Assembly (NCBI RefSeq): GCF_001941975.2
Contig: NZ_CP146991.1
Span: 1,660,524 to 1,724,523 of the forward strand
Direction of reading: 5' to 3'
Source of the DNA: Sporomusa sphaeroides DSM 2875
GTDB lineage: Bacteria > Bacillota > Negativicutes > Sporomusales > Sporomusaceae
DNA: 64,000 bases
In this document: positions 6,866-55,478 of the stretch, piece by piece
Layout: every line of letters begins with the position of its first letter
Position numbering within the stretch: the stretch's first letter is position 1
Notes under the pieces: model-generated
What the model saw: only the letters and a program-made list of their open reading frames with translations
What the model was told of the DNA's origin: nothing
Database searches by the model: none
Position numbers and translations under genes: made by a program

Positions 6866-8302
6866 ATGAGTAAAAGTATAATCGCCAGCGTGATGCCGGA
6901 AGAAACCAGGGTGGCCCTTTTAGAAGCAGGTGAGCTGATGGAAGTATCGGTGGAACGCAGCGAAAGCGGACATTTGGTCGGCAATATCTACAAAGGCAAA
7001 GTAAAAAATGTTCTTCCGGGTATGCAGGCCGCATTTGTGGATATTGGCCGGGATAAAAATGCTTTTTTATATATGGGGGATGCGGGTCGTCAAGCCGCCT
7101 GTCAGCACTTGACCATCGGCCAGGATGTACTTGTGCAGATTGCCAAGGACGCCATGGGGGACAAAGGACCGCGGGCTACCATTAGTCTGACACTGCCTGG
7201 GCGGTATATTGTGCTGATGCCTACCGTCGACTATATCGGTATTTCGCGCCGCATTGAAGAAGAACCCGAACGTGAACGCCTGCGTCAGATTGCCGAGAAA
7301 ATTCGTCCGGCCGGCATGGGAGTCATTGTCAGAACGGTAGCCATAGGCAAAGGTGAGGAAGACTTAATAAAAGATATGGCTTATTTGGCTAACATGTGGT
7401 CAATATTAAGCTCCAGGGCTAAACGCAGCAATGCTCCGGCGCTCATTTACCGGGATGCCGAGCTTGTTGTGCGGATTGTCAGGGACTATCTGACTGAGGA
7501 TGTTACCGAGTTTGTTATTGATAACCAGGAAGCTTACAACCGGGTTGTTGATTTACTTACCCATATATCGCCCGAGCTGGCAGAGTGTGTTCGCTTGTAT
7601 ACACCAACCGGCCAGGAGAGTGATATATTCAGCCGTTTTAACCTGGATACCCAGTTGGACAGCCTGCGTAACCGGCGGGTAGAATTAGCCTGTGGCGGCT
7701 ATTTAGTCATTGATCATACCGAAGCACTTACTGTCATTGACGTGAACACCGGCAAATTTGTCGGCAAGACCAACCTGTCGGAAACGGTATTTCAGACAAA
7801 CCTGGAGGCAGCGGCACAAATCGTCAGGCAGCTAAGGCTGCGGGATATTGGCGGCATCATTATCATTGACTTTATTGATATGGACAAAGCCGAGCAGCGG
7901 GCAGCCGTGCTTGCCGTACTTGAGCTGGAATTAAAAAAGGATCGTACCAAATCCAATGTGTTAGGCTTTACCAGCCTGGGCTTGGTTGAGATGACCCGGA
8001 AAAAGGCCAGGCAGAGTATTAACGGCATGCTTTACAGTCAATGTCCGTATTGTTTGGGAAAAGGCCGCATTAAATCGCCGGAAACGGTAGTGCTTGACAT
8101 TAAACGGGACTTAAGAAAGCTAAATAAACGGTCACGGCCGGGCGGCAGGCTGTTAATTCAAGTCCATCCCCAGGTAGCTGACTTGTTAACAAAGCAAGGT
8201 GAGCTCAAGCGTCTGGAAGAGGAAACAGCCAGAAGCCTTACGCTAGAATCTGTTGCCGACCTCAATCCGGAGATATTTTCCTTGCTGTGGAAACCAGATT
8301 GA
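6866..8302 (+). CDS. rng: Ribonuclease G/E family endoribonuclease
   Basis: The 478-residue protein has the RNase E/G catalytic-domain layout: an S1-type RNA-binding segment near residues 35-125 ('GNIYKGKVKNVLPGMQAAFVDI' region), the 5'-sensor region, and the DNase I-like subdomain with catalytic aspartates in 'VIDVNTGKFVG' and 'IIDFIDMD'. The zinc-link 'CPYCLGKGR' near residue 392 mediates dimerisation. It lacks the long C-terminal degradosome scaffold of RNase E, so RNase G is the better name. It probably processes rRNA 5' ends and decays mRNA. Its stop codon lies inside the -35 box of the rplU promoter. Confidence 0.93.
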   Translation: MSKSIIASVMPEETRVALLEAGELMEVSVERSESGHLVGNIYKGKVKNVLPGMQAAFVDIGRDKNAFLYMGDAGRQAACQHLTIGQDVLVQIAKDAMGDKGPRATISLTLPGRYIVLMPTVDYIGISRRIEEEPERERLRQIAEKIRPAGMGVIVRTVAIGKGEEDLIKDMAYLANMWSILSSRAKRSNAPALIYRDAELVVRIVRDYLTEDVTEFVIDNQEAYNRVVDLLTHISPELAECVRLYTPTGQESDIFSRFNLDTQLDSLRNRRVELACGGYLVIDHTEALTVIDVNTGKFVGKTNLSETVFQTNLEAAAQIVRQLRLRDIGGIIIIDFIDMDKAEQRAAVLAVLELELKKDRTKSNVLGFTSLGLVEMTRKKARQSINGMLYSQCPYCLGKGRIKSPETVVLDIKRDLRKLNKRSRPGGRLLIQVHPQVADLLTKQGELKRLEEETARSLTLESVADLNPEIFSLLWKPD

Positions 8303-8327
8303 CAAACTATTACCAGTATGATATTAT
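8299..8327 (+). promoter_or_regulatory. Strong promoter for rplU-prp-rpmA, overlapping the rng stop
   Basis: TTGACA at 8299-8304 and TATTAT at 8322-8327 are separated by exactly 17 bp. The rng stop codon TGA (8300-8302) lies within the -35 hexamer. Predicted transcription start is about 8334, giving a leader of about 220 nt. Confidence 0.8.
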
Positions 8328-8333
8328 TTGATG

Positions 8334-8553
8334 ATGTAGGCAGTGTCTACACCACCGCACGGAGAGGTTCTACTAAAACTAGGAACTGCTTAGAAATGCT
8401 CAGGTGCTAGGCGCGATGAGCATGCGACCGTAGTCGTACTGGGAAGTACGTCGCAGGGAGCACGCGCAAGAGCAACAACGCAGATGGGCGTTTATAAGCA
8501 GTTCCGGGTACCGTATTCGGCGAGTCCTAACACAGGGGAGGTGCAAACTAAAC
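8334..8553 (+). promoter_or_regulatory. rplU (L21) mRNA leader
   Basis: The region between the promoter and the rplU start is unusually long for a ribosomal protein operon. It begins with a segment containing 'ACACCACCGCACGG', which resembles the proximal part of L21-type autoregulatory leaders (recalled pattern, not aligned), and ends with 'GGGGAGGTGC' before the ATG. A self-folding element with 11-bp perfect ends (8382-8505) sits in the middle and may interrupt or extend the ancestral leader. Confidence 0.55.
8382..8505 (+). repeat. Compact structured element with terminal inverted repeats, inside the rplU leader
   Basis: The 124-nt segment is bounded by perfect 11-bp inverted repeats, GGAACTGCTTA (8382-8392) and TAAGCAGTTCC (8495-8505). 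The match continues imperfectly for about 26 nt (about 21 identical). An inner hairpin, CGTACT-GGGA-AGTACG (8435-8450), is itself closed by GCGA/TCGC (8424-8427, 8451-8454). It codes for nothing visible. It resembles the element at 51180-51349 in layout: long imperfect arms, a GCGCGA motif, and a central palindrome with a GG-containing loop. It could be a MITE-like repeat or a small structured RNA. Confidence 0.6.
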
Positions 8554-8865
8554 ATGTACGCTATTATCGAAACAGGCGGTAAACAATACCGCGTTACTGA
8601 AGGCGATGTGCTCAACATTGAGAAGCTCGAAGCTGCCGAAGGTCAGACTGTTGATTTTGATCGTGTTCTGACTGTGGTAAAGGACGGCGAGGTCGTTATC
8701 GGCAAACCGCTCATTGCTAATGCCAAAGTTACTGCTGAAGTAGTGGCCCATGGCAAAGGCAAGAAGATTCTGGTTTTCAAATATAAAGCCAAGTCCAATT
8801 ACCGCCGCCGCCAAGGTCATCGTCAGCCGTTCACTAAAGTCCGCATTGCGAAAATTGAAGCATAA
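8554..8865 (+). CDS. rplU: 50S ribosomal protein L21
   Basis: The 103-residue protein is full length for bL21. It starts '[18 protein letters not shown]' and ends with the RNA-binding C-terminus '[21 protein letters not shown]'. It binds 23S rRNA domain VI and neighbours L20 in the large subunit. It heads the rplU-prp-rpmA operon, expressed from the promoter at 8299 through a structured leader that probably controls its synthesis. Confidence 0.98.
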
Positions 8866-12945: not shown

Positions 12946-14121
12946 TCAGGCTGCCAGACGATAAGGCTCGCCGGATTTCACCAGAGCATAAATGAGCCGC
13001 ACCAGCTTCTTGGCAGCATGAGAGATGGCCACATTGTAATGCTTTCCCTCGGCGCGTTTCCTGGCGAGGTAAGCGGCAAAGACAGGGTCCCAAAGGCAAA
13101 CAAATTTTGTGGCATTGAAGATGGCATAGCGTAGGTATCTGGAGCCGCGCTTCTCCATATGGGCATAGCAATTTTTAAGCTGCCCGGATTGGTAGGTAGA
13201 GGGCGACAGGCCGGCATAGGCCAAAATCTTGTCAGGGGAATCAAAGCGTGAAAAGTCACCCACCTCAGACAGAATCATAGCCCCCATCCTGTAGCCAATG
13301 CCGGGAATCGTGGTAATAGGCGAAAGCATCTTGTCCATGATGCGTTGGATGACCTGTTCAATTTCCGCAATCTCGGCATCGAGTTCACGGATGAGCCGGA
13401 TGGTATGCCGCAGTTCCAGTGATTTCGCGGTCGTCACAGAGCCAATCGATTGCCTGGCGGCTTCACGTATCTCTATGGCTTTGTCCCGTCCGTAACGGCC
13501 TTTGGAGGATTCGGCAAGCAAATGGGTGAGCCGCGTCAGATGTGCCGCTGCAATCTGCTTAGCCCCCGGGAACTCATCGAGCAAGGCGTAAACAGAGGCC
13601 ATATGGAGTGACGATACCAGCTTTTCCAGCTCCGGGAACAGGATGCATACCAGCCTGGCAATTGAGGACTTCAGCTTAGCGCGTACCTTCACCTTGTCGA
13701 ACCGGTATCTGGTGAGTGACTTTAGCTCCTCATTGTGGTAAGCTGTGTCTGTGTAGGGCTTGAGGCCCACATCAGACATGAGCATAGCCGCAATTGTTCG
13801 CGCATCGACACGGTCAGTCTTCGTCTTTCGCAGGGTGAGGCTTTTCCGGTAAAGATTGGTGTGCAAGGGGTTAATGACATAGGTGTCCAGACCATTGTCA
13901 AGGAGAAACCCGAGAATGTTGTAGCTGTAGTGTCCGGTAGCCTCAAGCCCTACCTTTATTTTGTCCAGGGGCAAAGAACAGGCACGGATTTTTTCCAACA
14001 GGTAGCCAAATCCTTCCATGCTGTTTTGGATGGTGAACACATTTGCAAGGACTTTACCCTCCGAACTGATGATGAAGCAGTCGTGTTTATCCTTAGCGAC
14101 ATCAATCCCGACACAAATCAT
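12946..14121 (-). CDS. IS110-family DEDD transposase (bridge-RNA-type recombinase)
   Basis: The start is the ATG at 14121 with GGAGG 8 bp upstream; an earlier in-frame ATG at 14160 lacks this. The 391-residue protein begins 'MICVGIDVAKDKHDCFII', the RuvC-like domain with the first catalytic aspartate, continues with 'TGHYSYNILGFLLDNG' and 'RKTKTDRVDARTIA', and ends with the IS116/IS110/IS902 domain ('TTIPGIGYRMGAMILSEVGD', 'AYAGLSPSTYQSGQ') containing the serine used in recombination. The frame is intact, so the element may still be active. Family members use a bridge RNA to pair donor and target DNA. Confidence 0.95.
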   Translation of the reverse strand: MICVGIDVAKDKHDCFIISSEGKVLANVFTIQNSMEGFGYLLEKIRACSLPLDKIKVGLEATGHYSYNILGFLLDNGLDTYVINPLHTNLYRKSLTLRKTKTDRVDARTIAAMLMSDVGLKPYTDTAYHNEELKSLTRYRFDKVKVRAKLKSSIARLVCILFPELEKLVSSLHMASVYALLDEFPGAKQIAAAHLTRLTHLLAESSKGRYGRDKAIEIREAARQSIGSVTTAKSLELRHTIRLIRELDAEIAEIEQVIQRIMDKMLSPITTIPGIGYRMGAMILSEVGDFSRFDSPDKILAYAGLSPSTYQSGQLKNCYAHMEKRGSRYLRYAIFNATKFVCLWDPVFAAYLARKRAEGKHYNVAISHAAKKLVRLIYALVKSGEPYRLAA

Positions 14122-14232
14122 AGCAAGACCTCCAACGGTATTATTTGATGCTGTACCCACAGAACACTTTGCTCTTGTAACCTTGTTCTACATCAACCGT
14201 CTGGCGGTATCTAACTGATTAACAAACCTGCA

Positions 14233-55243: not shown

Positions 55244-55478
55244 TGCAAATCTTAAGAGGCAGAATAGTAAATGATAGCTGCGGTTCAGAAAGTTGGCGGT
55301 CGCTGTGAGCCAATCTGTACTATTATTGAACTCGCTGCTGAAGAGCGACTGTGAACGTGTGTAGTGGTCGACGCGAGGCTGGCGTTATTGGCAAATGAGT
55401 GGATGACAATTGTCATCAAACAGGGTGGTACCGCGAGAAGCCTCGTCCCTGGCGTTAGCCACGGGATTTTTTTATATT
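55244..55478 (+). promoter_or_regulatory. T-box leader controlling leuS (leucine specifier CTC)
   Basis: The leader carries the T-box AGGGTGGTACCGCG at 55422-55435 and a downstream terminator (CCCTGGC/GCCACGGG around 55448-55465, followed by seven T residues), which competes with the antiterminator. The specifier loop shows GAA-CTC-G with the leucine codon CTC at 55331-55333. Uncharged tRNA-Leu would stabilise the antiterminator and let transcription reach leuS. Confidence 0.92.

Follow-up and report, generated by a model that had tools for sequence, protein, structure and literature searches.

The 124-nt segment at positions 8382–8505 on the plus strand of the 64,000-nucleotide stretch of the Sporomusa sphaeroides DSM 2875 genome analyzed here (hereinafter, the window) is probably one member of a family of dispersed palindromic repeats, non-autonomous, ~124–130 bp long, and resembling MITEs and ERIC, and its presence in the leader of rplU, the gene of the ribosomal protein L21, would represent a tolerated insertion. 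Most likely, it was mobility as a repeat, and not a role in regulating the L21 operon, that brought the element there. Its copies occur at many unrelated loci and in both orientations, share one fold maintained by compensatory changes, carry strand-specific wobble pairs, and have their 3′ ends biased toward genes. The habitat of the element comprises intergenic regions and spacers of the stable-RNA operons in its class, with a thinner distribution in other Bacillota. An earlier note on this DNA had offered two options. A mobile repeat that landed in a ribosomal leader is favored by the many copies at unrelated loci and by the rplU leaders of 11 relatives, in which the full element is missing, whereas a dedicated rplU leader RNA is disfavored, since conservation of the element upstream of rplU is lacking and copies elsewhere lie in both orientations.

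The segment forms a single long hairpin with a minimum free energy (MFE) of −57.0 kcal/mol, a stability that no member of a set of 200 dinucleotide shuffles attained (mean −35.9 ± 3.4 kcal/mol, z −6.2); this confirms the self-folding 124-nt unit, with perfect 11-bp ends extending imperfectly to about 26 nt, described in the earlier note. Inward from the perfect end stem (GGAACTGCTTA/TAAGCAGTTCC), the arm of ~26 nt continues with one mismatch, nine pairs, a two-base internal loop, and three further pairs. The 5′ arm of this outer helix (8382–8407) is paired in the MFE fold with the 3′ arm (8480–8505), and both-side changes are found in 18 of its 22 pairs (columns 6–30 with 107–131) in A2, an alignment of 44 copies from which the covariance model R1 was built. 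The outer helix encloses an internal core (8408–8479) made up of internal loops, a middle stem, and an apical hairpin; the core columns of A2 are near-invariant, with both-side changes present in the internal pairs. The apical hairpin CGTACT-GGGA-AGTACG (8435–8450), the GTA..TAC columns of which are invariant across 26 distant copies, had been recognized in the note as well; the flanking GCGA/TCGC pairing claimed there was not upheld, as GCGA (8424–8427) is not contiguous with the hairpin and the two tetranucleotides are not paired with each other in the MFE fold. Together with the fold and the homologous copies, the R1 match at 8379–8508 (plus strand, 140.3 bits) delimits the element in the window. 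At this position, the minus strand gave an R1 score of 36.2 bits, and the single further hit of R1 in the window was at chance level (E 0.89).

A BLAST search with the 124 bases returned three places in the same genome and copies in nine of nine genus genomes. With R1, eight places were found in the S. sphaeroides genome, three of them strong (134–140 bits) and five at 42–80 bits; among the latter, one copy contains N letters and another is shortened internally. Copies were detected by R1 in 12 of 12 family genomes, in 88 of the 300 genomes surveyed for the class (with scoring limited to 11 candidates per genome), and in 33 of the 398 genomes surveyed for the phylum, 29 of them outside the class (with a limit of eight candidates per genome); the threshold in the latter two surveys was E ≤ 1e-4, and their E-values are rough. 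In genome G010, a contiguous stretch of 400 kb harbors 42 R1 matches spread over its length, i.e., about one copy per 10 kb, four of them covering the inner part only; provided that this stretch is typical, extrapolation gives ~500 copies in total. A pattern scan of named genomes retrieved 14 stretches, two of them in Bacillota MAGs and the other 12 in Sporomusa (five species or strains). The search for other copies in related genomes, proposed in the earlier note, thus revealed many of them at unrelated intergenic loci, which argues for a repeat. A solitary copy of 121 bits (L122), the only match at the threshold in genome G504 from outside the class, may stem from recent transfer or contamination.

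The family appears to be new, judging from searches of collections and of the literature. The window copy had no match in phage and plasmid collections or among 20,395 E. coli records (E 0.01), nor did two exact core patterns match the viral contigs scanned. None of the Rfam families reached its cut-off on the hairpins of the loci scanned; the end of one copy (L115), located beside a true 5S gene, is overlapped by a 5S match that stays below threshold (30.4 bits vs. a cut-off of 38). No title or abstract listed in the literature searches described the element family, and a text search for six core stretches of the element, in a collection lacking most subscription papers, found no paper.

The conservation of the fold with compensatory change is strongly supported. 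Over the 35 pairs of A2, 96.0% of cells are paired vs. 82.9% in shuffled alignments, both-side changes occur in 24 of the 35 pairs, and the covariation score is 0.401, compared with 0.148 for shuffled versions and no more than 0.094 for slid ones. Since the structure was partly read off A2 itself, it was checked independently on 26 hand-chosen copies from other orders and classes (some from other families of the same order) aligned by sequence only; RNAalifold returned the same hairpin for this set, and 27 of its 34 pairs show changes on both sides. The covariance model proposed in the earlier note did reveal very strong covariation; the expectation that it would mark only a leader RNA failed: it is the repeat family itself that covaries, and therefore the dichotomy of repeat and leader drawn there was too sharp. 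As a more general warning, a dispersed repeat can be the source of strong covariation found ahead of a ribosomal gene.

The pairing is also strand-specific. Cells with G-U outnumber those with A-C by 119:13 in A2, 80:3 in A4, and 120:18 in A3, the last two alignments being fitted to the model and A3 taking in three weak opposite-strand hits on a copy. Such an excess implies that it is the plus strand that folds, be it RNA or single-stranded DNA. The folded plus strand would then be recognized by the mobilizing or maintaining machinery, and such recognition could account for the drift of the outer-stem sequence with its pairing kept. More broadly, and tentatively, these elements might be phylum-spanning mobile hairpins recognized via the folded plus strand instead of a fixed terminal sequence, with ends free to diverge as long as they pair, extra hairpin arms fitted in at set internal-loop positions, and 3′ ends situated at the borders of genes, possibly being kept by the host as cis-acting RNA. 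The fold may be maintained for mobility, for use by the host, or in part through mutation bias, and all three are entertained below.

The position of the copies relative to genes, taken here as long ORFs only, combines indifference to gene orientation with a preference for one end. Within the 400 kb of G010, co-directional gaps hold 15 sense and 14 antisense copies (17 and 19 in a second count on another copy list); in a broader copy set, about half of those in such gaps (42 of 83) are antisense to both flanking genes. Of the two ends, the 3′ one is the closer to a gene in 24 of 32 intergenic copies of the G010 stretch (one-sided binomial 0.0035) and in 57 of 79 copies at other loci (5e-5, orthologous copies included). 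The distances were obtained for 111 copies, which remained of 170 distinct ones after restriction to those with usable flanks (129) and removal of 18 overlapping a called ORF; this set contains orthologous copies, so its members are not independent. When the neighbor on the 3′ side is antisense, the distance between its gene end and the stem end is 0–8 nt for 22 of 58 copies; a 5′ neighbor within 0–8 nt of the stem was encountered in four of the 111. Between an antisense 5′ and a sense 3′ neighbor (divergent-type gaps), the 3′ end is the nearer one in only six of 12 copies. Copies also reside within spacers of rRNA and tRNA operons: those at L178 (G025), L160–L163 and L177 (G035, G016), and L115 either have tRNA genes on both sides or adjoin genes for 23S/5S rRNA and tRNA.

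Some of these traits would be expected if the element were a structured RNA maintained by the host, the transcribed hairpin acting in mRNA processing, stability, or translation as a dispersed cis-acting RNA, in a manner comparable to that reported for ERIC and NEMIS. Apart from the phylum-wide compensatory changes, the G-U strand specificity, and the proximity of the 3′ end to gene starts or stops, this explanation draws on a site orthologous in seven Sporomusa genomes, where the element persists and its flank diverges. The outer stem at this site displays paired changes (CTGCTTA/TAAGCAG vs. CGATTA/TAATCG), so that the element, kept at sites shared across the genus, looks like a subject of host-level constraint or gene conversion and not like neutral debris. 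However, a transcript-borne function is difficult to reconcile with the half of co-directional copies (42 of 83) lying antisense to both flanking genes, with the unrelated gene contexts, and with copy numbers varying within one order from none found (G013, G034, G073, and G123) to an extrapolated several hundred (G010). On balance, maintenance by the host as RNA is conceivable, if doubtful.

The covariation could also originate from mutation, e.g., from template switching correcting the palindrome arms or from gene conversion, and not from selection on the folded strand. The predominance of Watson–Crick pairs in the outer ten pairs (393 of 440 cells in A2) conforms to such an origin, as do the inner modules at the above orthologous site, which differ between close genomes and would suggest gene conversion. 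The next nine pairs speak against it: U-G wobbles are kept there in most copies (39 of 44 and 32 of 44 at two pairs) and A-C is almost absent, whereas correction of the arms would erase wobbles and has no strand preference. Such a mutational origin is considered unlikely.

For the preferred reading, a mobile repeat, the ends of the mobile unit and its potential mobilizers are of special importance. A clear target duplication (CTAG) was observed in one genome, G106, where four copies at unrelated loci share a common unit of ~180 bp bounded by CTAG at both ends, with the terminal sequences GNAGTCTGTTGCAAAAC / GGAGACTGCTGCAAAAG in most of the four. The DUF772 elements of G091 used in this comparison, which we take to be of the IS1182 type, also have CTAG on both sides, followed by GAGTGTGTTGCAAAACCC, and their ends are similar to those of the G106 element. 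These parallels form the case for a MITE of IS1182-type (DUF772) transposons inserting at CTAG. Against it, a DUF772 match was present in 12 of 17 carrier genomes and not found in G016, G048, G059, G068, and G505; R1 was run on 30 DUF772 loci without detecting a hairpin; in the window copy, CTAG is confined to the left side; and no CTAG pair was seen in Sporomusa, where inspection by eye of 57 copies in 21 site clusters revealed no evident target duplication and conservation largely ends at the stem ends. As a general origin of the family, an IS1182-derived MITE seems improbable, and IS1182 was rejected as a general partner because of the five carriers lacking DUF772 and the 30 loci free of the hairpin. 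No target duplication was evident by eye in G010 either; conservation of its type A copies reaches ~19 nt on the 5′ and ~15 nt on the 3′ side (42 of 55 copies used). A separate observation concerns Sporomusa IS1182-type copies (L180, L183, L184, L192–L194, L203, and L204), which are often found inside inverted-repeat flanks such as GGGGACGGTTC...GAACCGTCCCC, as if they inserted into other palindromic repeats.

Another candidate partner, the Y1 transposase, which would be expected in carriers of a REP/RAYT or IS200/IS605-derived element, does not clearly track with the element over 24 genomes. Y1_Tnp is present in 20 of them, including G014, G020, G029, and G073, where no copy of the element was found; it is missing from the carriers G009 and G106, both represented by incomplete genomes, and from G013 and G034, in which no copy was found. 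Overall, none of the transposase families searched tracks the element, and no transposition event was seen.

The internal organization of the copies is flexible. Long variants of ~180–300 nt possess extra hairpin arms at recurring internal-loop positions, e.g., at L061, L068, L075, L264, L270, L277, L278, L280, and L281, where some of the extra arms start with ACGATTCTG and end with TTGTGCGG; the arms possibly constitute a nested system of small elements. A search for 5′ and 3′ halves up to 4 kb apart yielded 22 pairs with a gap of more than 60 nt, the 11 unpaired 5′ halves being set aside; the longest gap was 301 nt, and no coding arm was found inside copies in this search, which covered the fetched loci. 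Two kinds of larger structures were considered and dismissed. Intergenic islands in G392 and G354 (L316–L320) consist of mosaic repeated pieces including the hairpin, with neighboring copies ~730–820 bp apart; as autonomous parents they were rejected, being mosaic repeats in which three inner ORFs had no Pfam match and the others were only inspected. Likewise, no transposase lies between inverted pairs of copies 1.1–1.3 kb apart at the six loci inspected: these are conserved loci with no transposon, the pairs flanking a transketolase half and a YitT gene (two of the genes were checked in Pfam).

The rplU leader itself offers a well-defined host site. A promoter-like pair at 8299–8327 on the plus strand (TTGACA, 8299–8304, as −35; TATTAT, 8322–8327, as −10) precedes the element, and the rplU ORF (8554–8865, plus strand; PF00829 Ribosomal_L21p, 144 bits) follows it. 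The location between promoter and start given in the earlier note is thereby corroborated, and judging from this position the element is expected to be part of the rplU mRNA. The L21 protein was found in 12 of 12 family genomes, and their aligned rplU leaders retain the promoter (−35 identical, −10 similar in the relatives) and two native boxes separated by a variable loop: box 1 (ACCGCACGGAGAGGTT, 8354–8369, plus strand) and box 2 (TACCGTATTCGGCGAGTCC, 8509–8527, plus strand), which is predicted to pair with box 1. Both boxes are represented in the RF00559 alignment of the relatives and are somewhat changed in G009. The native boxes occur in all 12 genomes and the full element in the leader of one, that of the window; the leaders of the other 11 lack it and have a shorter loop that is not alignable to the base. 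The Rfam family L21_leader (RF00559) matches four element-free relatives below the cut-off (23.8–28.6 bits vs. 36; four of eight loci scanned) and does not match the element itself. The sub-threshold likeness to L21_leader belongs to the native leader hosting the element; the element is not part of that family and, in the genome of the window, fills the apical loop of this leader. An RNA dedicated to regulation of the L21 operon, in keeping with the sense orientation, the stable fold, and the location between promoter and rplU, is very improbable and largely refuted by the copies at unrelated genes, by the 11 of 11 relatives with a shorter loop in place of the full element, and by the four element-free leaders resembling the L21 leader family.

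For the rplU copy, the best interpretation is an insertion into the leader loop that is tolerated there. In this lineage, a copy of the repeat would have landed in the apical hairpin of the pre-existing leader. The predicted fold of 8336–8553 keeps the pairing of boxes 1 and 2 around the element, which extends the leader hairpin. The insertion would be tolerated because the complementary ends of the element only lengthen this hairpin, leaving the two boxes still able to pair. The event may be older than it looks, because four other Sporomusa leaders bear a short AT-rich hairpin at the place of the element, which might, on weak grounds, be a deleted copy: when aligned to the element, its score was reached by none of 500 shuffles for G003 and G006, by two for G005, and by 11 for G001, and half-model HMMs gave no hit in these four leaders. 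In G010, a half-model HMM located a copy (L155) on the other side, downstream of rplU.

Small dispersed palindromic repeats are already known, e.g., ERIC, RUP, and NEMIS (PMC2229807, PMC2267715). ERIC (IRU, RU-1) is a 127-bp enterobacterial intergenic repeat (PMC2229807); the element is alike in being ~125 bp long, in pairing its 5′ and 3′ ends into one hairpin, and in being intergenic, dispersed, and non-autonomous. It differs in spanning a class and reaching other classes of Bacillota, in an outer stem that varies with pairing kept, and in the extra inner arms of some copies; the distinction from ERIC proper relies on the lack of a match for the window copy in enterobacterial (E. coli) records. 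RUP and Correia/NEMIS MITEs are of similar size, ~105–155 bp, and an internal segment may be present or absent in some, as in NEMIS (107/155 bp); the terminal repeats of RUP are shared with an indicated IS630 partner (PMC2229807). In contrast to RUP, the terminal sequence of the element is not constant, and it has no established partner.

The similarity to IS1182-type MITEs comes down to the CTAG boundary and the similar ends in G106 and G091; the ends differ in the other lineages examined, and DUF772 is missing in five of the 17 carriers. HEARO and omegaRNA-type mobile RNAs are mobile structured RNA-like units with many ORF-less copies. The element is also structured and RNA-like, with many ORF-less copies; in contrast to them, no copy with a coding arm was found (gaps of up to 301 nt in the 4-kb search of the fetched loci). 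In common with MITE- and ERIC-like repeats, it occupies many unrelated intergenic loci and has an end-to-end inverted repeat forming one long hairpin. It departs from ordinary MITEs in its phylum-wide occurrence, ends that drift yet pair, strand-specific wobbles, and optional arms. The compensating outer stems, the optional arms, and the 3′ end near genes make it unusual for its kind.

The present findings bring in a family of structured repeats that seems to have escaped cataloguing and that occurs in 88 of the 300 genomes surveyed for one class; the covariance model makes it searchable. If the folded strand is indeed recognized, the family would provide a direct test of strand-dependent mobility or host use of hairpins. 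Elsewhere in the window, an IS110-family transposase gene (PF01548 and PF02371) is located on the minus strand at 12946–14160, and a T-box leader (RF00230, 135.5 bits) at 55245–55453.
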